Source: Actinomyces naeslundii (GTDB lineage Bacteria > Actinomycetota > Actinomycetes > Actinomycetales > Actinomycetaceae). From it: a DNA stretch of 64,000 bases. Shown piece by piece: positions 21,993 to 39,395 of the stretch (position 1 is its first letter; every line of letters starts with the position of its first letter). Position numbers and translations under genes: made by a program. The notes beneath the pieces are model-generated. The model searched no databases. It was not told the DNA's origin and was given only the letters and a program-made list of their open reading frames with translations. The DNA is taken from positions 62,001 through 126,000 of the forward strand of contig NZ_MSRR01000013.1 in NCBI RefSeq assembly GCF_001956585.1, in the 5' to 3' direction.

Positions 21993-22066
21993 CCTGGTCC
22001 GTGTCCGGCCATGAGGGTGCTTCCTTCTGCTCTTTCACAGCATCCCAGCGCCCTCGCTCTCCGGAC

Positions 22067-22103
22067 GCAGCCGGGTGGGCCGTCAACGGCTCCACCCGGC
22101 TGC
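22067..22103. terminator. Bidirectional hairpin between convergent genes
   Basis: A 13-bp stem (22067-22079 with 22091-22103, one G-T pair) sits between the convergent SCO0854-like and VOC genes. An equivalent, stronger hairpin is present in copy B at 37339-37374. Confidence 0.65.
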
Positions 22104-22113
22104 TGTGCGAGGA

Positions 22114-22887
22114 TCAGAAGGTGGTGAGCAGGAAGCGCGCACCATGCGGGTCGGCAACCTCCACCATGCGTCCGAACGTGAAGTCGATGGGCTCGACGAT
22201 GACGGCTCCCCCGAGCTCGCGCACCCGCCGGGCTGCGGCGTCCGCGTCCTCAACCCCGAAGTAGATTCGCCAGCACGAGGGGGCCTCCTCACCGAAGTAG
22301 CCGGCCCGACCGACGCCGCTGACAGATCTACCCCCGACGACGCTGGTGTAGAAGTCCTGCTCCTGGTCGGCGATGGTCAGCCGGCGGGTGGACCACCCAG
22401 CGACCTCCCGATAAAAGCGCTCGGACACCTCCAGGTCGCCGGCCAGGACGTCGAACCACACCGGCATCCCGGCCTGGTAGGGGTAGGGCCCCTCGAAGTC
22501 CTCACCCTCCAGGAGCCCGACGACGTTACCGTCGGGATCGGAGGCGAGGGCATAGGCCATGGTCTCAGTGACGCGAGTGGGCTCCACAACGACACTCCCT
22601 CCGACCCTCTCAGCGGCTCCGGCGGCGGTGCGGACGTCATCGACCATGAAGCTCACCCGCCAGCCGGGGTCCCCGTGCGCCTCCTCGGCGGGCTCGAAGG
22701 AACCGATGAGCCGACCGTCGTGATGCACCTCGATGGTCAGCGGCTCGCCCGGTTCGGCAGGGGTGATCTCCCAGCCGAGAAGGTCCCGGTAGAACGCGGC
22801 CGAGGCGTCAATGTCCGGTGTGTACAGCTCGATCCAGCAGGGAAAGCCGGCAAGGCGCTCGGCGGGCAGGGCGGTGGTGTCGGTCAT
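22114..22887 (-). CDS. VOC-family protein, two-domain (copy A)
   Basis: 257 residues, two tandem VOC/glyoxalase modules. Module 1 starts FPCWIELYTPDIDASAAFYR and ends ALASDPDGNVVGLLEGEDF; module 2 starts MPVWFDVLAGDLEVSERFYR and ends MVEVADPHGARFLLTTF. This layout is typical of actinobacterial CFP-30/hydroxylase-like VOC proteins; substrate unknown. AAGGAG precedes the ATG. It follows the AraC-type regulator on the same strand, 135 nt downstream, so the regulator may control it. A near-identical copy is at 37386-38174. Confidence 0.85.
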   Translation of the reverse strand: MTDTTALPAERLAGFPCWIELYTPDIDASAAFYRDLLGWEITPAEPGEPLTIEVHHDGRLIGSFEPAEEAHGDPGWRVSFMVDDVRTAAGAAERVGGSVVVEPTRVTETMAYALASDPDGNVVGLLEGEDFEGPYPYQAGMPVWFDVLAGDLEVSERFYREVAGWSTRRLTIADQEQDFYTSVVGGRSVSGVGRAGYFGEEAPSCWRIYFGVEDADAAARRVRELGGAVIVEPIDFTFGRMVEVADPHGARFLLTTF

Positions 22888-23021
22888 CAGTGGCTCCTTA
22901 CGTATCCAGCCGCATGTCGAGGGACGTCATACGCTCCACGACGGTAGACCGGCCGGTACGCCGCGAACGACTCCGATCCTGCTCTCTTGAGCGGTTCCCC
23001 TTGAGCCGCCTCAGACGGCCA

Positions 23022-23849
23022 TCAGACCACCATCGCCGCCAGGGCCACGAGGACCGCGGGATCCCAGGGGAGGGCGGCGCGCACCGGAAGAGTGACGGGG
23101 CCGGCGACTGGAGTCTCGGGGACACGCAGCCGCGCCACGAGAGGGCTCGCGGGGGCCAGGTGCTCGTGGACGCTGGCGCCGTCGGGGAGGATGGTGGCAA
23201 GGATCCAGGGGGCTCCCGGCACCACGGGCAGCTCGACCTCATCGATGTGTCGACGCAGTGTCCCGGTGGCCGGCAGCCCGCTGGGAACCGGCCGGGGAAA
23301 GGTCCCGACCCACTGGTAGGGGGCAGGTCCGAGCGCGCGGCGCATCTCCTCGGGGACCTGCGGACGGACGCGGATCCTCCCCGCCGCCGGCACCAGGAGG
23401 CTCACGGTCGGCAGGGTTCGTTCGGCGATCCGGTCGGCGATACGGCGCAGGGCGCCGGGTGGGGTTCCGACGTCGCGCAGAAAGCGGCGGCTGAAGGTAC
23501 CCACCGAGGTGTAGCCGACCTCGTGACAGGTCTCGGCCACGCCCAGGCGGTGGGTGACGAGGAGGTGCTTGGCCTCGTGCAGTCGCCAGGCAGCCAGGTA
23601 GTCCATGGGCGAGGTACCGACGGCGGCTGTGAAGACCCGAGTGAGGTGGGAAGGGCTGTAGGCCAGGTACGCCGAGAGGTCCTCGATGGTGACACGATCG
23701 CGGAAACGGGTGCGCAGGTAGTGGGAGGCTCGCAGCGCCAGATCGGCGGCGGCCTCGTCGAGCGGCTGACCCGTCTGAGCGCCGTCGACGGCTGTGACCG
23801 AGCGGGAGGGGCCCGGCGACATGAGCCCGTCAGGTGGGTACTGGCGCAT
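23022..23849 (-). CDS. AraC-family regulator (copy A)
   Basis: 275 residues. The double HTH is N-terminal: VTIEDLSAYLAYSPSHLTRV (first HTH), WRLHEAKHLLVTHRLGVAET, then VGYTSVGTFSRRFLRDVGTP (second HTH). The C-terminal ~150 residues form an effector domain I cannot assign. Leaderless start: TAACGT (23856-23861, minus strand), 6 nt, ATG. Upstream, divergent and 204 nt away, is the small PQ-rich membrane gene. The copy at 38309-39136 is of the same length. Confidence 0.85.
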   Translation of the reverse strand: MRQYPPDGLMSPGPSRSVTAVDGAQTGQPLDEAAADLALRASHYLRTRFRDRVTIEDLSAYLAYSPSHLTRVFTAAVGTSPMDYLAAWRLHEAKHLLVTHRLGVAETCHEVGYTSVGTFSRRFLRDVGTPPGALRRIADRIAERTLPTVSLLVPAAGRIRVRPQVPEEMRRALGPAPYQWVGTFPRPVPSGLPATGTLRRHIDEVELPVVPGAPWILATILPDGASVHEHLAPASPLVARLRVPETPVAGPVTLPVRAALPWDPAVLVALAAMVV

Positions 23850-24053
23850 GACAACACGTTACACAGTGGTGATCTCCGAAACGACGACTCGCGTCCCTGG
23901 GTACGGAACATCTGCACAGCCCGCTCACGGCGAAGAGGCCGGGGCCCCCGCATCGAGGGATCCACAAGCTGATATGCCGAAACAGGCCGCTCTGAAGGAA
24001 ACCTGACTTGCTACGCTACGACGACAACTGAAGCACACCCAGAAAACGGATCG

Positions 24054-24659
24054 ATGTCGACTCCCCAGAATCAGCCCCCGTACCAGCAGCCGTACCAGCC
24101 TCCCTATCAGGCTGTGCCTCCCTACGGACAGCAGCGCCCTCGTCCCACCCATGCGGGGAAGCTGGTTGCAGCGATCATCCTGTTCATCACCGGCCCATTA
24201 CTGGGAGCGTTCATCGCGGGAATCGGTTCCGTCATCGTCGCCGCCAGCATCGCCACCAGTGGAGACGTCATCACCAACGGACAGCAGGTCAGCCTGAGCA
24301 GCAACGAGGAACGGACCCTCTACGTACCGGAGGACGCCATCGTCAGCACCTGCACCGTCACCGCCCCTGACGGCAAGGAGGTCCCCGTCTCCCGCAGCAC
24401 CGGATCGCATATCTCCAACAACAACGGCGACTACGAATCCGCCCTGACATTCAAAACCGCGAAAGCGGGAAACTACCGCGTCTCATGCGACGACCTGAGC
24501 GACACCGATACGGTCCTCGTGGGCGCCGGGCTCACCTTCCGCCCATTCATGTGGTCGCTCATGGCAGGGATCTGCGCCGGCGCGGTCTGCTGGATCATTG
24601 CAGCCGTCCTCCTCATCCGACGCCACCGGGCCCTCGCCGCGCAGACTCAAGCGGGCTGA
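24054..24659 (+). CDS. Small PQ-rich membrane protein
   Basis: 201 residues. A short Gln/Pro/Tyr-rich N-terminus (about 30 residues, NQPPYQQPYQPPYQ) precedes a membrane segment (KLVAAIILFITGPLLGAFIAG and onward), an extracellular-looking domain of about 110 residues with two Cys residues (STCTV and RVSCDD), a second segment (LMAGICAGAVCWIIAAVLLI) and a short basic end. No family recognised; the cytoplasmic Pro/Gln tail plus membrane pair resembles many actinobacterial cell-surface proteins. A truncated copy of its 5' end survives at 39324. Confidence 0.7.
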   Translation: MSTPQNQPPYQQPYQPPYQAVPPYGQQRPRPTHAGKLVAAIILFITGPLLGAFIAGIGSVIVAASIATSGDVITNGQQVSLSSNEERTLYVPEDAIVSTCTVTAPDGKEVPVSRSTGSHISNNNGDYESALTFKTAKAGNYRVSCDDLSDTDTVLVGAGLTFRPFMWSLMAGICAGAVCWIIAAVLLIRRHRALAAQTQAG

Positions 24660-26794: not shown

Positions 26795-26886
26795 TGGTTG
26801 TGACAACTTGGTTCGGCCCCGTTGTGACGGCCTGATCTGGCCCCGCGTGCGACTTGCCGGGGTGTTGACGGTCTGAACTGGCCCCA
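26795..26886 (+). repeat. Left terminal repeats of the IS21-like element
   Basis: Two related units: GTGACGGCCTGATCTGGCCC (from 26824) and GTTGACGGTCTGAACTGGCC (from 26864). The outermost 45 nt (26801-26845) pair with the right end as an imperfect inverted repeat. Confidence 0.7.
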
Positions 26887-26942
26887 CCCCTTCACGCTGG
26901 TCCCCATCACTGGGAACCAGTCGCGAGGGCAAGGGAGCCAAG

Positions 26943-28610
26943 ATGGGATCACGAGTGCAGCTGTACGCCGACATCCGCCACGACGCGCGAGTCGATGGCC
27001 TGTCCATCCGCGAGCTCGCCCGCAAACACGGAGTCCACCGCCGCACCGTCCGCCAGGCACTCGCCGCAGCCGAACCCCCACCCCGCAAGAAACCGGTCCG
27101 CACAGCACCGCGCCTGGACCCGTACAAGCCGGCGATCGACGAGATGCTCACCTATGACCTGACCGCGCCGCGCAAGCAGCGCCATACCGCGACCAGGATC
27201 CTGGCCCGGCTGCGCGACGAGCACGGCGCCACCGACCTGTCCTACTCCACGGTGCGGGACTACGTCCGGGTCAGGCGCGCGCAGATCGATCTGGAGGCCG
27301 GGCGCCGGGTGGAGGCGATGGTGCCGCAGGACCACGCCCCCGGCGCGGAGGCCGAGGTCGACTTCGGCGAGGTCTACGTCATCCTGGACGGCGTCAAGAC
27401 CAAGTGCCACATGTTCGTCTACCGCCTGTCCCACTCCGGCAAGGCCATCCACCGCGTCTACCCGACCGGCGGACAGGAGGCCTTCCTCGAAGGACACATC
27501 GAGGCCTTCCACGCCCTGGGCGGCATCCCCACCCGCCACATCCGCTACGACAACCTCACCTCCGCCGTCGTCCAGGTCATCCACGGCGGCGACCGGCTAC
27601 GCGACGAGAACGAACGCTGGGTGCTGTTCCGCTCCCACTACGGCTTCGACGCGTTCTACTGCCAGCCCGGCATCGACGGCGCCCACGAGAAAGGCGGCGT
27701 CGAGGGCGAGGTCGGATGGTTCCGCCGCAACCACCTCACCCCCATGCCCGAAGTCGCCACCCTGGACGAACTCAACGACAAGATCCGCGCCTGAGAGCAC
27801 GACGACAACACCCGCCGCATCACCGGCCACGCCAACACGATCGGGCAGGACCACCACGCCGAGCTGCCCCACCTGGCACCGTTGCCGGCCGACGACTTCG
27901 ACCCCGGCCTGATCCTCCACCCCCGCGTCGACCGCTCCGCCCTGATCACCGTCCGCATGGTCAAGTACTCCGTCCCCGCGCACCTCATCGGCCAACGCGT
28001 CCGCGTGTCCCTGCGGGCCTCGTGCGTGGTCGTGTTCGAGGGCCGCACCGTCCTCGCCACCCACCCTCGCCTCGGCACCCGTGGCGTGACCCGGGTCGAG
28101 CTGGACCACTACCTCGAAGTGCTGCGGCACAAGCCCGGCGCGTTCCGCGGCTCCACCGCCCTCGCGCAGGCCCGCGCCGCCGGAGCATTCACCGCGGCCC
28201 ACGACGCGTTCTGGGCCGCGGCCCGCAAGACCAGCGGCGACGTGGCCGGAACCCAAGCGTTGATCGACGTGCTCCTGCTCCACCGATCCCTCCCGTCCGA
28301 CGCGGTGATCGCCGGCATCACCTCGGCCCTGTCGGTGGGCGCGATCAGCCCCGACGTCGTCGCCGTCGAAGCCCGCCGCCATGCCACCACCCACACACCC
28401 GCCCCAGCCAGCCAGACCAGGGGCGGGACGGTCGTGAACCTGCCACCCCGACGCCCCACCAACCCGCACCAGGTCATCGCGCACCTGCCCGAAGACACCC
28501 GGCCCCTGCCCACCGTCACCGCCTACGACGAACTCCTGTGCCGACGCCAACCCGATCCCGCCCCGGCCCCCGCCGAGACTCACCACCACACCCCGACAGG
28601 AACCCCATGA
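26943..28610 (+). pseudogene. istA: IS21-family transposase IstA, interrupted by an in-frame TGA
   Basis: IstA is the DDE transposase of IS21 elements. N-terminal HTH with LSIRELARKHGVHRRTVRQAL, then the catalytic core: AEVDFGEVYV (first Asp), HIRYDNLTSAVV (second Asp region) and HEKGGVEGEVGWFRRNHLTP (Glu). At 27792-27794 the frame reads TGA just after KIRA, where IS21 relatives have a sense codon, most simply TGG; the frame then stays open to 28610 with normal IstA C-terminal sequence (RRITGHANTIG; VRMVKYSVPAHLIG). A shorter 283-residue product can still be made, but the C-terminal part is lost, so the element is probably no longer self-mobile unless the stop is read through. The end overlaps istB by 4 nt (ATGA). 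Confidence 0.85.
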
Positions 28611-29422
28611 CCACCACCAGCACCAGCCGTCCCGAGAGCCTTCGCCGTCGTCAGGGCCTCACCGAGCAAGCCGCGCAGGCCGCGATCGACCAAGCCTGCC
28701 GCCGGCTTCGGCTGCCCACGATCCGCGCCGTCGTCGACGACGCCGTGACGGCCGCCACCAAGGAACAACTCACCTACCAGGGCTTCCTCGCCGAACTCCT
28801 CCTGGCCGAGGTCGACGACCGCGACCGCCGCTCCACCCTGCGTCGCATCAAGAGCGCCGGCTTCCCCCGCGAGAAATGGCTCGCCGACTTCGACTTCACC
28901 GCGAACCCCAACATCAACCCGGCCACCATCAACGAGCTCGCCACCGGCGACTGGATCCGCCGCGGCGACCCGCTGTGCCTGATCGGGGGCTCCGGCACCG
29001 GCAAGTCCCACCTGCTCATCGCGCTCGGCACCGCCGCCGCCGAGCAGGGCTACCGCGTCCGATACACCCTCGCCACCCGGCTCGTGAACGAGCTCGTCGA
29101 AGCCGCCGACGAGAAACAACTCACCAAGACCATCAACCGCTACGGCCGCGTCGACCTCCTCGTAATTGACGAGCTCGGCTACCTGGAACTCGACCGGCGA
29201 GGCGCCGAACTGCTGTTCCAGGTCCTCACCGAACGAGAGGAGAAGAACGCCATCGCGATCGCCTCCAACCAGTCCTTCTCCGCCTGGACCGACACCTTCA
29301 CCGACCCCCGCATGTGCGCAGCAATCGTCGACCGCCTCACCTACAACGCCACCATCATCGAAACCGGCACAAACTCCTACCGCCTCGCCCACACCCGAGC
29401 CCGGGCATCTGTGATGGGGTGA
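28607..29422 (+). CDS. istB: IS21-family ATPase helper IstB
   Basis: 271 residues, AAA+ ATPase that assists IstA in target choice and strand transfer. Walker A LIGGSGTGKSHLLIALG, Walker B VDLLVIDELGYLELD, sensor region IAIASNQSFSAW and arginine-finger region DRLTYNATIIET. Intact. ATG overlaps the istA stop by 4 nt, so translation is coupled. Unlike normal IS21 elements, no terminal repeat follows; the convergent copA gene ends only 25 nt downstream. Confidence 0.93.
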   Translation: MTTTSTSRPESLRRRQGLTEQAAQAAIDQACRRLRLPTIRAVVDDAVTAATKEQLTYQGFLAELLLAEVDDRDRRSTLRRIKSAGFPREKWLADFDFTANPNINPATINELATGDWIRRGDPLCLIGGSGTGKSHLLIALGTAAAEQGYRVRYTLATRLVNELVEAADEKQLTKTINRYGRVDLLVIDELGYLELDRRGAELLFQVLTEREEKNAIAIASNQSFSAWTDTFTDPRMCAAIVDRLTYNATIIETGTNSYRLAHTRARASVMG

Positions 29423-29447
29423 ACAACGACCGGCTGGGCTCTTGGGG

Positions 29448-31925
29448 TCAGCGGTGACGGCGCAACCGCAGCGAGTTGGTGATCACGCTGACCGAACTGA
29501 GGGCCATGGCGGCGGCCGCGATGACGGGCGACAGCAGCCAGCCAAAGGCCGGGTAGAGGGCGCCGGCGGCCAGCGGGATACCGACCACGTTGTACACGAA
29601 CGCGAAGACCAGGTTCTGGCGGATGTTGCGCATCGTGTCGACCGACAGGTCGCGGGCCTTGACCAGGGCGGCCAGGTCACCGCCGAGCAGGGTCACGTCG
29701 GCGCTCTCGATGGCCACGTCGGTGCCGGTGCCCATGGCCACACCCACGTCGGCCACGGCGAGGGCGGGGGCGTCGTTGACGCCGTCGCCGGCCATAACGA
29801 CCGTGTGGCCCTGGGCCTGCAGGGCCTGCACGTGGCCGTGCTTCTGGTCGGGCAGGACGTCGGCGACGACCTGGTCGATGCGCAGCTCGTCGGCGATGGC
29901 CCGGGCGGTGGTGGCATTGTCGCCGGTGAGCATGACGACCTTCATCCCGCGCCGACGCAGGTCCTCGATCGCGCCGGCGGTGGTCGCCTTGAGCGGGTCG
30001 GCGATGGCCAGCACACTGGCGGGCCTGCCGTCGACGGCCACGACGATCGCGGTCGCGCCACGGCGACGGTAGGCCTCCACCACGGCGTCCAGGGCATGGG
30101 TGTCGACGTGCTGGCTGCCCAGGAAGGCGGGGCTGCCGACGAGCACGTGCTGACCGTCGACGGTGGCGCTGACACCGCCACCCGGGTGGGCGGCGAAATC
30201 GCTGGCCGCCGGCACCGTGCGTCCCGTCTGGCGGGCAGCATCGACCACCGCCCTGGCGAGGGGGTGTTCGGAGCCGGCCTCCACAGCCGCGGCGAGCAGC
30301 AGTGTCCGGGCATCCTCGTGGCCGTCGACGCCCTGCTGGTCGACCAGGCTGGGGCGGCCCTGGGTGAGGGTACCGGTCTTGTCGACGACGAGGGTGTCGA
30401 CCTTCTGCAGTCGTTCGAGGGCCTCGGCGTTCTTGACCAGCACGCCCTCGCTGGCGCCGCGCCCGACCCCGACCATGATCGACATTGGCGTGGCCAGACC
30501 CAGCGCACACGGGCAGGCGATGATCAGCACGCTGACGGCGGCCACGATCGCGAACGGCAGCCGCGGCTGCGGCCCGATCGCCAGCCACAACCCGAAGGTG
30601 GCCAGGGCGACGGCGATCACGACCGGCACGAACACCGCCGAGATCTTGTCGACCAGTCCCTGGATCGGAGCACGGGACCGCTGCGCCTGGGAGACCAGGT
30701 CGACGATCCGGGCCAGGGTCGAGTCGGCGCCCAGGCCAGTGGCCTCCACCACCAGGCTGCCGCCCTGGATGATCGTGCCGCCGATGACCCGGTCACCGGG
30801 GCTCTTGTCGACCGGAACCGGCTCGCCGGTGATCATCGACTCGTCCACATACGCGTGACCATCGACCACGGTGCCGTCGGCCGGCACCTTCTCGCCCGGC
30901 CGCACCCGGCACCGATCGCCCAGCTGCAGCTCGGCGGCCGGCACGTCGGTCTCGGTGCCGTCGGCCCCGATGCGGTGCGCGGTGGCCGGTGACAGGTCGA
31001 GCAGGGTGCGGATCGCACCGGAGGTCTGGTCGCGGGCCCGCAGCTCGAGGACCTGGCCGAGCAGCACCAGGGTGATGATGACTGCCGCGGCCTCGAAGTA
31101 GGTGCCGACCCGGCCGTCCATCGCCCGCATCCCGGACGGGAACAACCCCGGCGCCAGCACCGCGACCACGCTGTACAGCCACGCGGCACCGACACCCAAC
31201 GACACCAGGGTGAACATGTTCAGGTGACGGCTGACCACCGACTTCGCGCCGCGCACGAAGAACGGCCACCCAGCCCACCACACCACCGGCGTCGACAGGG
31301 CCAGCTCGAGCCACGGCGCGACGCTGCCGGGCAGCGCACGCCCCAGCACCATGGGAACCATCACCATCGCCACCAGCGGCACGCTCAGCACCGCCGCCAC
31401 CCGGAACCGGCGACGCATGTCGACGAGCTCCTGGTTCGGGCCGTCGTCGAGCCCGGCCGAGACCCGCTCCAGCGCCATGCCACAGATCGGGCAGTCACCG
31501 GGGCCGTCGCTGCGGACCTCGGGGTGCATCGGGCAGGTCCAGTCCCCTGCAGCGACCGCACCGGCCACCACCGCCGGCTCGCCGGTGGGGTGCTGGTGGT
31601 CGTGGTGCTGTGCGGCCGGCGCGTCCCCACCGTCGGCGGGTTGCAGGAACATCCCGCACTTGGGGCAGCGTCCCGGGTGGTCGCTGGTCACCTCGGGGTG
31701 CATCGGGCAGAGCCACGTGCCCTTGTCGTGGGTGTCGTGCTGCTGGGCATGTCCGTTCTGGCGGCCGTGTCCGTGCTGGTGGGTGGCGGGTGCAGCGTCG
31801 GCATCGACGAGGAACATGCCGCACTCGGGGCAGCGGCCGGGCTGGTCGCTGGTCACCTCGGGGTGCATCGGGCACGTGTAGCGGGTGGTGTGGTCGTGGG
31901 TGGCGGTGGCTGCCGGGTGGTTCAT
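29448..31925 (-). CDS. copA: Copper-exporting P1B-type ATPase with three heavy-metal binding repeats
   Basis: 825 residues. The N-terminus has three heavy-metal-binding (YHS-like) repeats with the core CPMHPEV..D.PG.CP.CGM (residues 16-40, 71-95 and 129-151), separated by His-rich linkers such as [11 protein letters not shown]. Then come the P1B ATPase parts: membrane site [11 protein letters not shown] (around residue 470), phosphorylation site DKTGTLTQG (around 514), [10 protein letters not shown] and [19 protein letters not shown] and the SEHP motif mark it as a Cu(I)/heavy-metal pump; copper is inferred from CPC and the neighbours. GAGGAG precedes the ATG. It is the second gene of a minus-strand unit with the small His-rich membrane protein. 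Confidence 0.93.
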
Positions 31926-31970
31926 GGGTTGCTCCTCGAGACGGTGCTGCCGGTGGATGGCGGGCGGTGG

Positions 31971-32285
31971 TCAGTGCTGGGATCCGTGGTCCATCATGCG
32001 CATCATCAGCCACATCATGAGCATGCAGCTGATGGCGGGCACGAGGGCGGCCAGGACACCGCCGGCGGCGAGGCTGGCACGTCCGGCCCACAGGTAGCCG
32101 GCGACCACGAGCAGCATCGGTGCGCACATCAGCAGGTGCATCCAGTGGTGGGACTTGCCGTGCTGGTGGGAGTTGCCGTGCTGGTGGGTGGTGCTGGTGG
32201 GGTCCTGGTCGGTCATTGGGCCGGTAAGGGGCTGGCGGGGGGCCTCGCCGAAGGAGCGGGGGGCCTGGTCGGGGCTCGTGTACAT
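31971..32285 (-). CDS. Small His-rich membrane protein (DUF2933-like)
   Basis: 104 residues. His-rich N-terminal part (HQHGNSHQHGKSHHWMH) followed by two hydrophobic segments (LLMCAPMLLVVAGYLWAG and a Met-rich one, LVPAISCMLMMWLMMRMM). Small His/Met-rich membrane proteins of this kind occur beside copper pumps and may pass or buffer Cu ions; the exact family and role are inferred. ATG at 32285 is preferred (AAGGAC 6 nt upstream) over 32216, which lacks a site. It is 45 nt upstream of copA on the same strand and has a copper-type operator at 32369-32385. Confidence 0.65.
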   Translation of the reverse strand: MYTSPDQAPRSFGEAPRQPLTGPMTDQDPTSTTHQHGNSHQHGKSHHWMHLLMCAPMLLVVAGYLWAGRASLAAGGVLAALVPAISCMLMMWLMMRMMDHGSQH

Positions 32286-32368
32286 GGCGTGTCCTTGTCT
32301 GCTCGGGGAAGGGGTTTTCCTTCCACTTCCACGGTGACGGGGCGAGGTCAATGAGCTCGCGAGGTTTG

Positions 32369-32385
32369 GTGAAGGTCTGGTCAAG
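32369..32385. promoter_or_regulatory. Candidate CopR-type operator, copA unit
   Basis: GTGAAGGTCTGGTCAAG, a direct repeat GT(G/C)AAG-N5-GTCAAG on an 11-nt period, 84 nt upstream of the His-rich membrane protein start. OmpR-family regulators typically bind such paired direct repeats; two related copies precede the other copper units. Confidence 0.6.
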
Positions 32386-32472
32386 CTCTGCAGACGGCGA
32401 TGGTGAGGCTGCCGCAAGGGGGCAGCCGCGCCATCAGGGCAGGCGTGGGTGGCCGACATCGGCCGGGAGATG

Positions 32473-33957
32473 TCAGTAGCGCAGGGTCGTCATCATGCCG
32501 AGTTCGGCGTGGTAGATGTTGTGGCAGTGCAGCATCCAGGTGCCGGGGTTGTCGGCCTGCAGGTCGGCCTCGACGGTCTCCATGGGGCGGATCAGGACGG
32601 TGTCCTTGCGCAGCCCGTCGCTGCCGGGCAGGGCCCAAGTGTGGCCGTGGATGTGCATGGGGTGGGCCATCATCGTCATGTTCGTCATCCGCAGCCGCAC
32701 GCGCTGGCCGCGGCTGAGCGCCAGTGGGGTGTCCTCGCCGAAGCGTTTGCCGTTGAGGCCCCACGCGTAGGGCTTCATCTGGCCGTTGAGTGCCACGTCG
32801 AGGGTGGTGTCGGGCTTGCGGTCGGGCAGTCGGGCGCTGTCGGCGGGCTTGAGCTGGGTGGTCAGCAGGGCCTTGCCGTCGAGTTCTGCGATGCGGGTGT
32901 CCGGGGCCGGGACGTTGCCGGAGCCGGTGCGCACGATGGCGCGGGCCAGGGTGCCCTTCTTGCCCTCGGGCGCGGCCTGCAGCACGAACACGCCGTCGCC
33001 GAGGGTGATGGTCGCATCCAGTCGTTCTCCCATCGCGAGGTAGACGGCGCTGGCCTGGGTGGGGGTCACAGGGAACCCGTCGGTGTGGGTGACGGTGAGT
33101 CGATGGCCCTGCAGGGCGAGCTTGAAGATGGTGTCGGAGGAGGCGTTGACGACGCGCAGTCGTACCTTCTGCCCGGGCTTGGCGGTCAGGGTGCGGGGCG
33201 CGGCGGGGACGCGGCCGTTGACGAGGTAGTGGGGGTAGGTGACGTCCCCGGCGTCACCCAAGGGTGACATGCCGTGGTCCATGCCGCCCATGTCGTGGTT
33301 CATGCCGCTGGACACGGTGCCGTTCTGGGCCTTGAACGCGGCGAGGATGTCATCGGGTGAGGTGCCCACGCCATCGGCCCAGTCGTCGAGGGTGATGATC
33401 CACTCGTGGTCGTAGCGGCCGGGTTCAGCGGGGTCGTCGATGACCAGCGGCCGGTACAGGCCGCGGTCGATCTGCACCCCGGTGTGGGGGTGGAAGAAGT
33501 AGGTGCCGGGGTCGGGGGCGACGAACTGGTAGGTGAAGCTGCTGCCGGCCTCGATGGGTTGCTGGGTGACGCCGGGCACGCCGTCGCTTGGCTGGCGCAG
33601 CGCGATGCCGTGCCAGTGGACGGAGGTGCTGGTGGGAAGCTTGTTCTCGACGCGGACCTGCAGCAGGTCTCCGGCGCGGGCCCGCAGGACGGGGGCGTCG
33701 AGGGTCTCGTCGTAGGCCCAAGTCCTGGCTGTGACGCCGCCCAGATCGAGGGTGACCGGCCGGGGCGTGAGGACGTGGTTGACGGTCTTCGTGCCGGGGG
33801 CTGCGACCAGCGGGGTCTGGCTGGGGATCGTCAATGGGGAGTTCGGCGCGGCGGGTGCTGCGGCCGGGGTGTTCTTGGCGCCGCAGGCGCTCAAGGCCCC
33901 TGCCGAGGCCAGGCCGAGACCGGTGAACAGGACGTGGCGGCGGGAAAGTGTGTTCAT
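32473..33957 (-). CDS. Multicopper oxidase, Tat-exported lipoprotein
   Basis: 494 residues. Tat signal SRRHVLFTGLGLASAGALSACG with a lipobox-like Cys, so it should be exported folded and lipid-anchored. All four copper-site clusters are present: HWHG (about residue 110), FFHPHTG (about 155), HPMHIHGHTW (about 429) and MLHCHNIYHAELGMM (about 475), the last with the type 1 Cys, His and Met ligands. Such CueO-like enzymes oxidise Cu(I) to the less toxic Cu(II) at the cell surface. AAGGAC precedes the ATG. It has its own operator at 34002-34018 and lies downstream of the sensor kinase on the same strand. Confidence 0.92.
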   Translation of the reverse strand: MNTLSRRHVLFTGLGLASAGALSACGAKNTPAAAPAAPNSPLTIPSQTPLVAAPGTKTVNHVLTPRPVTLDLGGVTARTWAYDETLDAPVLRARAGDLLQVRVENKLPTSTSVHWHGIALRQPSDGVPGVTQQPIEAGSSFTYQFVAPDPGTYFFHPHTGVQIDRGLYRPLVIDDPAEPGRYDHEWIITLDDWADGVGTSPDDILAAFKAQNGTVSSGMNHDMGGMDHGMSPLGDAGDVTYPHYLVNGRVPAAPRTLTAKPGQKVRLRVVNASSDTIFKLALQGHRLTVTHTDGFPVTPTQASAVYLAMGERLDATITLGDGVFVLQAAPEGKKGTLARAIVRTGSGNVPAPDTRIAELDGKALLTTQLKPADSARLPDRKPDTTLDVALNGQMKPYAWGLNGKRFGEDTPLALSRGQRVRLRMTNMTMMAHPMHIHGHTWALPGSDGLRKDTVLIRPMETVEADLQADNPGTWMLHCHNIYHAELGMMTTLRY

Positions 33958-34001
33958 GTCCTTGAGCCTGTCGGGCCCGGATGAAGCCCCGGCAGGGGTT
34001 G

Positions 34002-34018
34002 GTCAAGATCTGGTCAAG
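34002..34018. promoter_or_regulatory. Candidate CopR-type operator, multicopper oxidase
   Basis: GTCAAGATCTGGTCAAG, two perfect GTCAAG half-sites on an 11-nt period, 45 nt upstream of the oxidase start and overlapping the 3' end of the kinase gene. Confidence 0.65.
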
Positions 34019-35123
34019 AAGTCACGGTGGGCAGGGTCAGCGCGAAGGTTGCGCCGTGGCCGGGGCCGTCGCTGTGGGCCGTCAGGTCACCGCCGTGGGC
34101 GCGGGCAATGGCCCTGGAGATCGCCAGGCCGACACCGGTTCCACCGTCGACGTCGCGAGTGCGGGTGCCCTCGACGCGGTAGAAGCGTTCGAAGACGTGG
34201 GTGAGGGCCTCGGTGGGGATGCCGACGCCGTTGTCGGTGACGCGGACCACGGCCCGGTCGTGCTCGTGTCTCATCGCGACCTCGACCCGGTTGCCGCCCA
34301 CCGTGTGTTGCAGGGCGTTGCGCAGCAGGTTGTCCAGGACTTGCCCGATGCGAGCGGCATCCACGTCGACGCGCAGGCCGGGAACGGTCTGGGCGTGCAG
34401 CGTCACCCCGGCGGCGTCGTAGGCGTGCCGGGCTGCGGCGACGCTGGCCGTCACGATCTGGTCGAGGTCCTGGTGGCTCAGCGACAGTGGGATGCTGCCT
34501 TCCTCGGCGCGGGAGACCTCAGAGATGTCGGCGGCCAGGGCGGCCAGCCGCTGGTTCTGCCGTAGCAGGATCTCGACGTTTGCGGGGGTGAAGTCGACCA
34601 CACCGTCCTGCAGTCCTTCGAGGGTGACCTGGGTGGCGGCCAGCGGGGTGCGCAGCTCATGGCCCAGGTCGGTGAGCATGCGTCGTCGGGTCTGCTCCGT
34701 GGAGGCGATCTGGCTGGCCATGTGGTTAAAGGCGTCGGCGACCTGGGCCAGCTCGGGGCTGGCCGAGGTCATCATGACGGGTTGGTCGTAGTGTCCGGCG
34801 GCGACATGTTGGGCGCCGTCCACGAGGGCTTCGACCCCGCGCGACAGGTTCCGGTTGAGGACGGTGGCGACCCCGAGGGCGGCGAGCATCGCGGTGCCCA
34901 GACCCACGGCCAGTGACACCAGGCCCGCGTCGTGGAAGGCCTGCTGAGCGTGCTCGACGACATCGGGCTGGGCGTGGCCGGCTTCGAGCATGTGCATCCG
35001 GAACCATGCCGGGCCGACCAGCAGTGCCGTCAGCACCGTGGTGGCGGCCATCGCCGCCACCACGGCCATCTGGGTCCACAGCAGTCGGCGTCCCCAACTG
35101 CCGCGCGGGTTGCGCGGCATCAC
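34014..35123 (-). CDS. Sensor histidine kinase, copper-type
   Basis: 369 residues. Two N-terminal membrane segments flank a short outer loop (about 45 residues, with HMLEAGHAQPDVVEHAQQ), then HAMP, the dimerisation helix with the phospho-acceptor His in LGHELRTPLAATQVTL, and the ATPase domain with N-box DNLLRNALQH and G-boxes VTDNGVGIP and GTGVGLAISRAIARAHGG. It should sense copper outside the cytoplasm, by analogy with CusS/CopS; this is inferred from the neighbours. The start overlaps the response regulator stop by 4 nt. Confidence 0.9.
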   Translation of the reverse strand: MMPRNPRGSWGRRLLWTQMAVVAAMAATTVLTALLVGPAWFRMHMLEAGHAQPDVVEHAQQAFHDAGLVSLAVGLGTAMLAALGVATVLNRNLSRGVEALVDGAQHVAAGHYDQPVMMTSASPELAQVADAFNHMASQIASTEQTRRRMLTDLGHELRTPLAATQVTLEGLQDGVVDFTPANVEILLRQNQRLAALAADISEVSRAEEGSIPLSLSHQDLDQIVTASVAAARHAYDAAGVTLHAQTVPGLRVDVDAARIGQVLDNLLRNALQHTVGGNRVEVAMRHEHDRAVVRVTDNGVGIPTEALTHVFERFYRVEGTRTRDVDGGTGVGLAISRAIARAHGGDLTAHSDGPGHGATFALTLPTVTS

Positions 35124-35836
35124 TGCCCTTGGCCCATCCGGTAGCCGACGCCGCGCACCGTCTGCACGAACCGGGGCTGGGAGGGGTCGTCACCGAGCTT
35201 CTTGCGCAGGTGCGCGATGTGCACGTCGACCAGGTGGTCGTCGCCGACCCAGTCCTCGCCCCACACGGCGTCGGTGAGCTGGCGGCGGTTCAGCACCCAG
35301 CCGGGGTGTTCCGCCAGGGCCTGCAACAGGTCGAACTCGGTACGGGTCAGCTCCACCGGTGACGCGTCGAGCTCCACCCGACGCGACGACGGGTCCAGGG
35401 TGAGGGCGCCGATGCGGTGCACCACCGCGGCCGTGGCGCCCGTACTTCCGGCGCGGGGGCGTCTCAGCAGCACCTGGATGCGAGCCACCAGCTCACGCGG
35501 GCTGAACGGTTTGGTCATGTAGTCGTCCGCGCCGACCGACAACCCGATCAGCTTGTCGACCTCGTCGGCGCGGGCCGTGAGCATCAACACGTAGCAGTCG
35601 CTGAAGGTGCGCAGCTGGCGGCACACCTCCACCCCGTCCATGCCCGGCAGGCCCAGGTCCAGCACCACCACGTCGGGGGCCGTGGCCCGGACAAGGTCAA
35701 GCGCGGCCAGCCCGTCCCCGCAGGTCTGGGCCGACATGCCGGCCCGCTCGAGGTAGTTCTTCACCGTGCCCGACAGCACCGGCTCGTCGTCGACGACCAG
35801 GACACTCGGTACAACCGCAACAGAAGCGCTGTTCAT
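35120..35836 (-). CDS. OmpR-family response regulator, copper-type
   Basis: 238 residues. Receiver domain with acidic pair VVDDEP, phospho-acceptor Asp in VVVLDLGLPGMDGV and Lys in YMTKPFSPRE; C-terminal winged helix with RTEFDLLQALAEHPGWVLNR and VDVHIAHLRKKLG, ending VRGVGYRMG. It likely binds the GTCAAG-N5-GTCAAG sites before the three copper units. GAGG precedes the ATG. It is 32 nt downstream of the Met-rich membrane gene and overlaps the kinase gene by 4 nt. Confidence 0.93.
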   Translation of the reverse strand: MNSASVAVVPSVLVVDDEPVLSGTVKNYLERAGMSAQTCGDGLAALDLVRATAPDVVVLDLGLPGMDGVEVCRQLRTFSDCYVLMLTARADEVDKLIGLSVGADDYMTKPFSPRELVARIQVLLRRPRAGSTGATAAVVHRIGALTLDPSSRRVELDASPVELTRTEFDLLQALAEHPGWVLNRRQLTDAVWGEDWVGDDHLVDVHIAHLRKKLGDDPSQPRFVQTVRGVGYRMGQGQ

Positions 35837-35867
35837 GACACCACCTCACCACGGACCCGGCCGGGGA

Positions 35868-36587
35868 TCAATTCGACGGGGCGGAGCTGGGCATCATCGT
35901 CGAGTGGTCCATGTCCGTCATGCCACCCATGTCGTGGTTCATGCCGGACATGCTGCCCATGTCGTGCTGCACCGAGGCCGGCGCCTTCGGCGAATAGCCC
36001 ATGACGGCAGGGTCGAGCATGCCGAAGATCATCGCGACGTGGGCCACCACCAGGAACACCGCCACCATCGCCACGTGCAGGCGCAGGCGCCCGGTCTCGT
36101 CGCGGCCCAAGAGCTCGGCCTCCAGCAGGCTGATCACCAGCATCGGCACGCCACCGGCCAGGTACGACAGGACAGCGATCACGTCCGCGGGGCCACGCCA
36201 GCCACCATTGACCGTCAGCGGAACCACGGCAGTGATAAGCAGGTGCAGGCCGATGAACACCCACACCGGCCCGGCCAGCAACCCGGCCCAGTGGCCCACC
36301 TTCGTCACCCATCCCGGCGCCGGACGCTCACCCCGACGAGCCAACAGCATCACCAACTCGGTGATCGCGAGCGTCTCGGCCAGCACGACCGGAAGCGCCA
36401 TGAACAACAGCAGGTTCCACGGCTGACGCACGGCCAACAGCCCCATGTAGTGGGTCATCGGCATGCCCTCCATCCCCGACCCGGAGGTCAGGTCAGGGGC
36501 GGCCAGGGCCAGGGCGGCAGCTGCGATGGTGCCGACACCCAGGGCAACCAGCGGCACGGTACGGGAAGAGTTCTCGTTCGAGGTCAT
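35868..36587 (-). CDS. Met-rich multi-spanning membrane protein, copper operon
   Basis: 239 residues with about five to six membrane segments, e.g. TVPLVALGVGTIAAAALALA near the N-terminus, LLLFMALPVVLAETLAITEL and VAMVAVFLVVAHVAMIFGML. The C-terminus is rich in Met, His and Asp (HDMGSMSGMNHDMGGMTDMD), a likely copper-binding tail. I do not recognise the family; the tail and position point to copper handling. Start ATG 36587 is preferred to 36626 because the extra 13 residues are unlike a membrane N-terminus. It is the first gene of the regulator/kinase unit. Confidence 0.65.
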   Translation of the reverse strand: MTSNENSSRTVPLVALGVGTIAAAALALAAPDLTSGSGMEGMPMTHYMGLLAVRQPWNLLLFMALPVVLAETLAITELVMLLARRGERPAPGWVTKVGHWAGLLAGPVWVFIGLHLLITAVVPLTVNGGWRGPADVIAVLSYLAGGVPMLVISLLEAELLGRDETGRLRLHVAMVAVFLVVAHVAMIFGMLDPAVMGYSPKAPASVQHDMGSMSGMNHDMGGMTDMDHSTMMPSSAPSN

Positions 36588-36632
36588 GGCCACAAGCCTC
36601 GAAGCCCCACACCAAGGTCGGGGCAAGGGAAT

Positions 36633-36649
36633 GTGAAGATTCGGTCAAG
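36633..36649. promoter_or_regulatory. Candidate CopR-type operator, regulator unit
   Basis: GTGAAGATTCGGTCAAG, the third copy of the direct-repeat motif, 46 nt upstream of the first gene of the regulatory unit. It suggests autoregulation. Confidence 0.6.
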
Positions 36650-36667
36650 CCGGTCTCCGGGTAGACA

Positions 36668-36718
36668 TGGGGCCAGAACAGACCGTCACCATGGGGCCAA
36701 TCGAAGTTGACAGAGCCA
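36668..36718 (-). repeat. Right terminal repeat of the IS21-like element
   Basis: Reverse complement of this stretch matches the left end (36 of 45 identical over 36668-36712). The homology with copy A of the duplicated block begins two bases later, at 36720, so the element's end abuts the truncated gene exactly. Confidence 0.65.
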
Positions 36719-36719
36719 C

Positions 36720-37263
36720 CAAGACGACGCTCATCCCCTCCACCCGTCGTCCCGGCCCCGCCGACGCCGCGGTGGTTCGCACCGTCGAGGAGGCCCTGCA
36801 CCGGCGGGCACACCTGGGGCGGATCACCGTTGATCAGCGGCTCTATGAGGGCTACACGGCTCCGTTGGGACTACGTTCGGCCTCACCGGGCCTGCGCACG
36901 GCGGGGCGTGGAACCCGGCTGCCTCTGCCCGAGGGCGAGACGATCCGCTTCTTCCTGCACTGGCGCGACCTGGCCGTGGGCGTGGGCGAGCACCAGGTGG
37001 CGAACCTGGATCACAGCAGCAACCGGGCCCTGGCGCATCTGCTCGACCTGCTGGAGGGTCGGCGCATGCCGCTGGCGCACCTGCTGGGGCTCTTGGCCGA
37101 CGACGTCGTCGAGGACCCCGATAAGGCCCAGCTGGTCTTCGGCGAAGGCAGGATCCTGCCGTGGCAGACCGAGCGGCTCCTAGCGCTGCTGGACCCCGAG
37201 AGAGTCACGGCGGACGCGGTCTCCGAAGCGGACGGGGGCGCCGAGGACCGGCAGGCGGGGTAA
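36720..37263 (+). pseudogene. Truncated SCO0854-like gene (copy B) lacking the TerD-like module
   Basis: Matches the 19683-21992 gene from base 20990 onward (KTTLIPSTRRPGPADAAVVR; LYEGYTAPLG; GEHQVANLDHSSNRALAHLL). The first ~435 residues are missing, cut at the IS21-like right end. Inside, 444 bp (148 codons) corresponding to about 21238-21681 of copy A are deleted in frame, removing just the TerD-like stretch. An open frame remains from 36667, starting within the IS end, but the product is unlikely to function as the parent does. Confidence 0.8.
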
Positions 37264-37338
37264 CACTGGGCAGTGTCCAGCCATGAGGGTGCTTCCTTCC
37301 GCATTTTCACAGCATCCAGCGCTCTCGCTCTCCGGACA

Positions 37339-37374
37339 CGGCCGGGCGGGGTCATCAGTGACCCCGCCCGGCCG
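37339..37374. terminator. Bidirectional 16-bp hairpin (copy B)
   Basis: 37339-37354 pairs perfectly with 37359-37374 around a TCAG loop, between the convergent SCO0854-like remnant and VOC gene. Confidence 0.7.
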
Positions 37375-37385
37375 CTGTGTGCGGG

Positions 37386-38174
37386 TCAGAAGGTGGTGAG
37401 CAGGAAGCGCGCCCCGTACGGATCAGCAACCTCCACCATGCGCCCGAACGTGAAGTCGATGGGCTCGACGACGATGGTTCCCCCGAGCTCGCGCACCCGC
37501 TGAGCGGCGGCGTCTGCGTCCTTGACCCCGAAGTAGATGCGCCAGCGCGAGGGGGCCTCCTCACCCCCGAAATAGCCTGCCCGGCCCACACCGCTCACAG
37601 ATCTGCCCCCGACGACGCTCGTGTAGAAGGACTGCTCCTGGTCGTCAATGGTCAGCCGGCGGGTGGGCCACCCGGCGGCCTCCCGGTAGAAGCGCTCAGC
37701 CAGTTCCAGGTCGCTGGCCAGGACGTCGAACCACACCGGCATCCCGGCCTGGTAGGGGTAGGGTCCCTCGAAATCCTCATCTTCCAGGAGCCCGATGACG
37801 TTACCGTCGGGATCGGAGGCGAGGGCGTAGGCCATGGTCTCAGTGACGCGAGTGGGTTCCACAACGACACTCCCTCCGGTTCTCTCCGCGGCTCCGGCGG
37901 CGGTGCGGACGTCGTCGACCATGAAGCTCACCCGCCAGCCTGAACCACCGGGGGCCTGGGCGGCAGATTCGAAGGAGCCGATGAGCCGGCCGCCGTGATG
38001 CACCTCGGTGGTCAGCGGTTCGTCCGGCTCACTGCGGGTGATCTCCCAGCCGAGGAGGTCCCGGTAGAACGCGGCCGAGGCGTCGATGTCCGGTGTGTAC
38101 AGCTCGATCCAGCAGGGAAAGCCGGCAAGGCGCTCGGCGGGCACAGGCAGGGCATTGGCGGTGATGTCGGTCAT
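37386..38174 (-). CDS. VOC-family protein, two-domain (copy B)
   Basis: 262 residues, intact paralogue of the 22114-22887 product with two VOC modules (FPCWIELYTPDIDASAAFYR; MPVWFDVLASDLELAERFYR). Differences are scattered substitutions and a few extra residues near the N-terminus (ITANALPVPAERL) and after GYFGGEE. Both copies look functional, unlike the other genes of the duplicated block. It follows the copy-B AraC gene on the same strand. Substrate unknown. Confidence 0.85.
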   Translation of the reverse strand: MTDITANALPVPAERLAGFPCWIELYTPDIDASAAFYRDLLGWEITRSEPDEPLTTEVHHGGRLIGSFESAAQAPGGSGWRVSFMVDDVRTAAGAAERTGGSVVVEPTRVTETMAYALASDPDGNVIGLLEDEDFEGPYPYQAGMPVWFDVLASDLELAERFYREAAGWPTRRLTIDDQEQSFYTSVVGGRSVSGVGRAGYFGGEEAPSRWRIYFGVKDADAAAQRVRELGGTIVVEPIDFTFGRMVEVADPYGARFLLTTF

Positions 38175-38308
38175 CAGTGGCTCCTTACTCCAGCTGCATG
38201 TCGAGGGACGTCATAACGCTCCACGACGGTAGACCGGTCGGCGCACCGCTAACGACTCCGATCCTGCTCTCTTGAGCGGTGCCCCTTTCAGGCCGACTCA
38301 GACGACCA

Positions 38309-39136
38309 TCAGACCACCATCGCTGCCAGGGCCACAAGGACCGCGGGATCCCAGGGGAGGGCGGCGCGCACCGGCAGGGTGACGGGGCCGGCGACGGGAA
38401 CCTCGGGGACGGGCAGTCGCGCGACGAGCGGGCTCGCGGGGGCCAGGTGCTCGTAGACGCTGGCACCGTCGGGAAGAACGGTGGCGAGGATCCAGGGAGC
38501 GTCCGGGACCACGGGCAGCTCCACCTCGTCAATACCACGACGCAGTGTCCCGGTGGCCGGCAGCCCGCTGGGGACGGGGCGGGGAAAGGTGCCGACCCAC
38601 TGGTAGGGGGCAGGTCCGAGCGCACGGCGCATCTTCTCCGGAACTTCCGGGCGTACGCGGATCCTCCCCGCCGCCGGTACCAGGAGGCTTACGGCCGGCA
38701 GGGTTTGCTCGGCGATCCGGTCGGCGATGCGACGCAGGGCGCCAGGCGGGGTTCCGACGTCGCGCAGGAAGCGCCGGCTGAAGGTACCCACCGAGGTGTA
38801 GCCGACCTCGTGACAGGTCTCGGCCACGCCCATCCGGTGGGCGACGAGGAGGTGCTTGGCCTTGTGCAGTCGCCAGGCAGCCAGGTAGTCCATGGGCGAG
38901 GTTCCGACGGCGGCCGTGAAGACCCGGGTGAGGTGGGAGGGGCTGTAGGCGAGGTGCGCCGAGAGGTCTCCGATGGTGACACGATCGCGAAAATGGGTGC
39001 GCAGGTACCGAGTGGCTCGCAGCGCCAGGTCGGCGACGGCCTCGTCGATCGTCTGACCCATCTGTGCGCCGTCGGCCGCTGGAGCCACGTGGGAGGAGCC
39101 TGGCGACATGAACCCATCAGGTGAGTACTCGCGCAT
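38309..39136 (-). CDS. AraC-family regulator (copy B)
   Basis: 275 residues, intact and the same length as copy A (23022-23849). N-terminal double HTH: VTIGDLSAHLAYSPSHLTRV and VGYTSVGTFSRRFLRDVGTP. The leaderless layout is kept: TAACGT (39143-39148, minus strand), 6 nt, ATG. Its DNA-recognition helices are nearly identical to copy A, so both may bind the same sites. Confidence 0.85.
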   Translation of the reverse strand: MREYSPDGFMSPGSSHVAPAADGAQMGQTIDEAVADLALRATRYLRTHFRDRVTIGDLSAHLAYSPSHLTRVFTAAVGTSPMDYLAAWRLHKAKHLLVAHRMGVAETCHEVGYTSVGTFSRRFLRDVGTPPGALRRIADRIAEQTLPAVSLLVPAAGRIRVRPEVPEKMRRALGPAPYQWVGTFPRPVPSGLPATGTLRRGIDEVELPVVPDAPWILATVLPDGASVYEHLAPASPLVARLPVPEVPVAGPVTLPVRAALPWDPAVLVALAAMVV

Positions 39137-39323
39137 GACGCCACGTTACACAGCGGTGACCTCCGAAACGACGACGAGATAGGACCCCACCCACTCGGGC
39201 GGAGGAGCTGGGGCTCTGGCATCGAAGATTCCGCTGGCTGATACGCCGACACAGGCCACTTCCGCGGGAAGCCTGACTTCCTACGCTGTCATCGCAACCG
39301 ACGCACTCCCCAGGAATGGGTCG

Positions 39324-39395
39324 ATGCCGATTCCCCAGAATCAGTCCCCGTGTCAGCCTCAGTACCAGACGGCGTCCTCGTACGGGTACCCCTCG
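39324..39395 (+). pseudogene. 5' remnant of the PQ-rich membrane protein gene
   Basis: The first ~25 codons (MPIPQNQSPCQPQYQ) match the start of the gene at 24054 (MSTPQNQPPYQQPYQ), after a matching upstream region. Similarity stops near 39395 and the membrane segments are absent. Confidence 0.7.

Follow-up and report, generated by a model that had tools for sequence, protein, structure and literature searches.

The 64,000-nucleotide stretch of Actinomyces naeslundii DNA analysed here (contig NZ_MSRR01000013.1, positions 62,001 to 126,000 of the forward strand; hereafter the window) contains an istA/istB gene pair of the IS21 family of insertion sequences (ISs) alongside six copper-type genes on the opposite strand, and poses the question of whether these genes are mere neighbours or parts of one mobile unit. 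Comparison with other genomes strongly favours the second answer: the stretch 26795-36718 (9924 bp, with istAB at the left) is, with high confidence, one non-composite transposon, in which IstA and IstB would move the whole 9.9-kb unit together with the copper genes. A sequence-only reading of the locus had proposed such a single IstAB-type transposon with copper cargo, and the proposal is strongly supported by the occurrence of the element at eight sites, by target duplications and by an empty site. As judged by the comparison of copies, the unit was inherited and inserted as a whole with both its ends and is present in two families; we infer further that transposition is performed by IstAB, that the cargo protects against copper and that a promoter lies near the right end.

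Ends and transposition genes

The outer 50 nucleotides (nt) of the two ends agree at 40 positions, TGGTTGTGACAACTT being the start of the left end at 26795 and TGGCTCTGTCAACTT its inverted counterpart at 36718 on the other strand. Inner repeat units are located at 26825 and 26866 on the left and at 36688 on the right, giving the multi-unit terminal inverted repeats (units L1/L2 and R1/R2) that the accessible text of PMC10122671 describes for IS21. An end scan, in which a match had to start with TG and agree at 33 or more of 50 positions, returned only the ends at 26795 and 36718 from the 64-kb window and none from 312,045 bases shuffled to the window's base composition. The inverted repeats noted earlier at 26801-26845 and 36668-36712 are real, with outer limits lying six bases further out. 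The position of istAB just inside the left end was likewise borne out, and the end scan found no end-like repeat between istB and 36718. The reported distance of 25 nt between istB and copA was also correct (29422 versus 29448), but it is the 3' end of copA, on the minus strand, and not its start that adjoins the istB stop.

Profile matches above the curated cut-offs identify an IstA DDE transposase and an IstB AAA+ helper in tandem, which is the gene arrangement of the IS21 family. Going by known motifs and by eye, we take D140, D203 and E254 to be the DDE motif of the window's IstA.

Copies in other genomes, target duplications and empty sites

A family search of 213 genomes, with two candidates scored per genome, recovered the cargo at an identity of roughly 90% or more in eight genomes (window included), and istAB and the ends were present every time; among the cargo matches listed, the next stood at 74%. 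A search with IstB, described below, added a ninth genome, that of Enemella dayhoffiae from another family, whose cargo modules are 87.8-96.6% identical. In all nine genomes whose cargo has a DNA identity of about 88% or more (the window, G034, G024, Pauljensenia hongkongensis, A. timonensis, A. oris CCUG 34288 and WE8B-23, E. dayhoffiae and A. haliotis), this cargo is bounded by the same ends, an observation that the sequence-only reading had named as support for a single transposon. The unit measures 9.6-9.9 kb and its outer limits are identical in all nine copies, the ends of the A. haliotis copy lying on two contigs. Since the two A. oris copies share one site, the nine copies represent eight sites. 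DNA identity to the window in G034 and Pauljensenia, respectively, is 99.5 and 99.4% for istAB, 99.2 and 98.9% for the oxidase gene and 100 and 98.9% for the right end. Within the window's own genome, neither the element nor its right end was found a second time. Among plasmids, 124 records matched, none of them covering 80% of the query; the best covers 26% and contains istAB only.

Exact target duplications of 6-9 bp flank the element at six of the eight sites (9 bp in G034 and G024, 8 bp in P. hongkongensis and A. timonensis, 6 bp in Enemella and A. haliotis), and a 6-bp duplication with a single mismatch flanks the A. oris copies; at random places, exact 6-bp agreement has a frequency of 0.00065. 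Short target duplications, of 6-8 bp as far as the accessible reports on published relatives go, are an IS21 feature that the element displays, though not at the window. Furthermore, 19 other genomes of the genus contain sequence strongly matching the left flank of the G024 copy. All nine of these that were compared (the window's own genome among them) hold an empty site, such as had been suggested as a check, where the two flanks meet directly; their overlap is 9 nt in seven of these genomes and 8 nt and 5 nt in the other two.

On these grounds, IstA and IstB would act on two multi-unit ends, and the whole 9.9-kb unit would be inserted, leaving a target duplication of 6-9 bp. The passenger genes lie inside one pair of ends and are inserted as a unit, as in unit transposons, and the element would work as an IS21 element whose right end lies past a cargo operon. 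The gene families of the cargo fit copper resistance and may provide a self-contained copper defence made up of a P-type exporter, a multicopper oxidase, a two-component regulator and two accessory proteins. The whole set is oriented toward istB and presumably read from near the right end. Coordinates are collected in Table 1.

Table 1. Features of the element and its right flank in the window, followed by boundary-motif positions in related loci.
Feature	Position	Strand	Basis or remark
Left terminal inverted repeat, outer and second repeat unit	26795..26844	+	Starts TGG; 40/50 match to right end
Third left-end repeat unit	26861..26886	+	24 nt, 88% complementary to 36668-36691
istA 5' part, IS21 transposase	26943..27794	+	Ends at in-frame TGA; NF033546, 235.6 bits (cut-off 160)
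Remainder of istA frame past the stop	27795..28610	+	Open frame 27882-28610; Mu-transposase C-terminal domain, PF22483
istB, AAA+ helper ATPase	28607..29422	+	Open; NF038214, 267.8 bits (cut-off 200)
Cargo junction	29403..29447		DNA common to arsenic and other sister elements ends at about 29403, in the istB tail
copA, copper-type P1B ATPase	29448..31925	-	Three HMBD metal-binding domains; TIGR01511, 581.6 bits (cut-off 397)
Small His-rich protein	31971..32459	-	Membrane protein by eye; no family match
Multicopper oxidase	32473..33957	-	PF07732, PF07731, PF00394
Sensor histidine kinase	34014..35123	-	HAMP, HisKA, HATPase_c
Response regulator, winged-helix output domain	35120..35836	-	PF00072, PF00486
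DUF6803 protein, Met/His-rich tail	35868..36626	-	PF20617
Right terminal inverted repeat, two repeat units	36667..36718	-	
Right flank, interior of host gene cut by the element	36719..37263	+	Continuous with G016 at 98%
GCGTGACATNNNTNANCTGCCGA-type boundary	L052: 5225, 5851; L053: 10810, 12289; L098: 5223, 5849		
GCGTGACATNNNTNANCTGCCGA-type boundary, further loci	L038-L041, L048, L049, L145		

Alternative explanations

Certain observations weigh against a single self-moving transposon. The window copy has no flanking target duplication, and its istA is interrupted by a TGA at 27792-27794, after 283 codons; a full-length open istA (IstA of 555 amino acids) together with an open istB occurs in only two of the nine copies (G034 and Pauljensenia). 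The second empty site (that of G034, apparently empty in G007) hangs on a right-flank match of just 41 nt. In addition, copies may have been missed by the scoring of two candidates per genome.

The alternative that survives best is compatible with the single transposon: the copper unit might now be mostly passive, being moved in trans by related intact elements. It draws on the state of istA, which is broken in six of the nine copies and has an in-frame shortening in one more (that of A. oris WE8B-23, which is open and 24 nt shorter). It also draws on an identical in-frame istA stop in G024 (L116) and A. oris CCUG 34288 (L035), which occupy different sites, as if a broken copy had moved; this shared stop points either to movement in trans or to copies having exchanged sequence. 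A. oris WE8B-23 (L050), at the same site as CCUG 34288, is without that stop, so that exchange between copies or repeated mutation could likewise account for it, and the copies of G034 and Pauljensenia combine two open genes with clean 9- and 8-bp duplications. On balance, a mostly passive unit appears rather unlikely.

In a composite transposon, two IS21 copies would have flanked the copper genes, the right one having since been deleted down to its end. Such transposons are common, and the right end does stand alone, without istAB; the sequence-only reading had itself held that a right end derived from a separate IS copy would speak against a single transposon. One istAB was seen in each of the nine copies, however, and no second istAB, second pair of ends or further end in any of them. 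All eight other copies share the right 92 bases at 97.8-100% identity, including those of Enemella and A. haliotis, in which istAB is 94.3 and 94.6% identical to that of the window. Moreover, the duplications enclose both ends as one unit, which refutes a composite structure for today's element. We regard this alternative as very improbable, a composite structure being possible as the remote origin of the unit.

Chance neighbourhood of an IS21 element and resident copper genes, the right repeat being a relic of another element, would suit the window locus, with its missing duplication and broken genes on both flanks, and is refuted by eight sites with identical outer limits, the duplications and the empty site, which leave it a negligible probability.

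Related elements with other cargo

The single transposon with copper cargo was set among its relatives by means of the IstB search, which covered the best 80 of 258 loci, six of them copper copies. Ends were accepted as paired with a match of at least 29 of 50 positions, or of at least 22 of 50 plus a duplication of at least 6 bp. By this rule, both ends were paired in 47 of the 80 loci, 30 of which carry an exact duplication of at least 6 bp; the remaining 33, where no end pair passed (partly on account of contig ends or an unfitting end pattern), were not counted and are uninformative on cargo. Measured from where the IstB match ends, the right end lies less than 600 nt away in 9 of the paired loci, 600-1500 nt in 5, 1500-4000 nt in 14 and more than 4000 nt in 19, and 33 of the 47 thus have at least 1.5 kb between istB and the right end. 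The loci are redundant, and these counts are therefore not independent events.

The cargo found in this space is diverse. Arsenic genes (ArsA, ACR3 and a disulfide reductase relative) occur in A. thoenii (L042), and two further carriers of 99% identical arsenic cargo are Actinomyces G027 and a Cutibacterium plasmid, the latter annotated with arsA, arsD and arsB. A 4.6-kb element (L088) carries a mercuric reductase gene, its cargo being 88-100% alike in all 12 further loci, while a 7.2-kb element (L073) has genes for mercuric reductase and organomercurial lyase (merA/merB). The cargo of the latter is at least 99.95% alike in all eight further loci, found in Mycobacteriaceae and Rhodococcus (L073-L081), and six of these nine loci have different exact duplications of 6-9 bp. 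The near-identity of merA/merB cargo in nine loci points to a recent spread. One of them, L081 of Mycolicibacterium chlorophenolicum, has doubled ends (8003/8098 and 15280/15405), which lie 95 nt apart on the left and 125 nt apart on the right.

On a Gordonia sihwensis plasmid (L145, 12004-21065), an istAB element of 9.1 kb is flanked by a 6-bp duplication and carries genes annotated as MerR, Vsr and sulfate permease as well as a group made up of oleate hydratase, 3-hydroxyacyl-CoA dehydrogenase and TetR. Acetyltransferases and other small genes form further cargo, and short relatives of about 3 kb are also found, e.g., in Tsukamurella and Microbacterium. A second copper element, in A. jensenii and Nigerium and in part in A. 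thoenii, has the same gene types in the opposite orientation; the five genes compared in A. jensenii show 57-78% protein identity, and the istAB DNA of this second element is 88-91% identical. At the DNA level, the cargo labels were confirmed for the mercury loci (8/8 and 12/12 others) and the forward copper loci (3/3), each matching its own group. The 33 paired loci with at least 1.5 kb of space, taken together with nearly identical istAB genes joined to unrelated cargo, define a cargo-carrying ('transporter') branch of the IS21 family, to which the element is assigned by these sequence comparisons.

Exchange of modules

The istAB of the window is closer to that of the A. thoenii arsenic element (98.6% identity) than to that of the A. 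haliotis copper element (94.6%). In an IstB tree of 81 rows (cargo labels assigned by the author, 27 rows unlabelled, the stops of two rows entered as X), the seven rows with window-type copper cargo do not form one group, and the starred branches force at least two label changes. Either the left module has been exchanged between elements or related copper sets have been acquired twice.

In ten other elements, the shared sequence extends about 45 nt beyond the point at which that of the window stops (about 29403), up to CTGCCGA (CCGCCGA in one), beyond which they diverge within about a dozen bases. The motif CAGCGGCA (the reverse complement of TGCCGCTG) occurs just inside the right end in seven of the nine elements with a known right end, the remaining two having CAGCAGCA at that place; inner copies of the first motif are present in three elements, two of which are nearly the same element. 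A conserved GCGTGACATNNNTNANCTGCCGA-type boundary marks where the cargo starts behind istB, and less exact copies of it lie within some cargo; a 574-bp segment is shared with 99% identity by elements in which it has different neighbours. No empty site was found for the boundary motif, and the copper elements do not show it. Because a search for the boundary pattern in 394 genomes of the class gave one match, with one mismatch and without an adjacent istB, the capture of cassettes is taken as a hint only. An integron attC reading of the motif, considered by eye only, was dropped.

A tentative reading, which we hold to be somewhat less probable than its opposite, is that of a modular IS21-type platform. 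Near-identical istAB/left-end modules would be joined, at or just past the istB tail, to exchangeable cargo/right-end modules such as copper genes (in either orientation), arsenic genes, acetyltransferase-type genes or oleate hydratase. In one subgroup, the cargo would be cassette-like between short CTGCCG-containing sites, hinting at site-specific capture or exchange. In Rothia kristinae (L071, 10770-20796), two cargo types stand side by side: part of the forward-oriented copper cargo, a 99% match to the A. jensenii one, begins about 1.3 kb after arsenic cargo that matches the A. thoenii one at 99%.

Relation to known systems

Large cargo is moved by a DDE transposase with an AAA+ partner in Tn5053/Tn402 and Tn7 as well, and in Tn5053 the cargo includes mercury resistance. 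The element differs from these systems in that its proteins match IS21 models, none of the nine scanned proteins matches a Tni or Tns family, and its duplications are of 6-9 bp. IS21-558, for its part, is not known to be a single unit with inner cargo. It resembles the present element as a member of the IS21 family linked to moving a resistance gene, namely cfr (as cited in PMC9137128, in its accessible part).

The IS21 elements IS5376, IS1415, ISLxc1 and ISPve1 are similar to the present element in their IstA/IstB pair, multi-unit ends and short direct repeats. According to the accessible parts of the reports, IS1415 (PMC12915292) and ISLxc1 (PMC2516522) are cargo-free with 6-bp direct repeats, and ISPve1 and ISPve1a have direct repeats of 8 and 7 bp (PMC3281130). 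IS1415, ISLxc1 and ISPve1 measure 2.5-2.6 kb, with no cargo described in these parts, whereas the element here measures 9.9 kb and has six passenger genes. The statement that IS21 elements carry only istA and istB agrees with the accessible text of PMC10122671 (which also presents IstA as a relative of the MuA and TnsB transposases), but does not hold for many close relatives with cargo; with six further genes between its ends, the element falls outside such a strict definition.

Transporter ISs, which have their own transposase genes and ends and carry genes unrelated to transposition, are already known (PMC9330008, PMC3129680). The element fits this concept, the accessible parts of both sources naming no IS21-type example, and is distinguished by a whole metal-resistance set as cargo and by sister elements with other cargo. 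Among the titles and abstract openings listed, mostly outside subscription journals, no description of cargo-carrying IS21 elements with metal genes was found, and an IS21-type transporter with metal cargo is apparently an undescribed variant.

Entire metal-defence operons appear to travel between actinobacterial families by means of IS21 machinery, and an annotation that ends at 'istA, istB' therefore misses the mobile unit. The branch forms a natural series of 3 to 10 kb with different cargo and similar ends, suited to studying how such elements acquire or exchange cargo and what length of DNA IstAB is able to mobilise.

State of the window copy and its flanks

The earlier description of istAB in the window overlooked both the broken istA and a rearranged left flank. 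Genome G016 is continuous with the right flank, and its similarity to the other copy of the interrupted host gene extends across the insertion site. The left flank of the window, which carries a gene fragment, has no match in the G016 sequence preceding the site. Since no duplication is present, the left side is taken to be rearranged, and this rearrangement dates from the insertion or later. With its istA stop, missing duplication and rearranged left flank, the window copy looks old and is taken to be a remnant.

One possible origin of the rearrangement is a deletion beside the istA side. The accessible part of PMC3281130 describes one-sided deletions beside the 5' end of ISPve1 (IS21), which a near-identical isoform did not produce. 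Recombination between copies is another possible origin. A short relative present in Tsukamurella ocularis as two copies of 3.07 kb (L059 and L061, 8052-11117 in each) has crossed flank repeats of 6 and 7 bp: the sequence to the left of one copy matches that to the right of the other, a pattern such as recombination between copies would leave.

Apart from the element, a host gene block is present twice in the window (20990-24098 and 36720-39368), its matching stretches being 75-92% alike. By eye, it comprises the end of a long open reading frame, a VOC-like protein and a helix-turn-helix regulator; of its two copies, the element interrupts the second.

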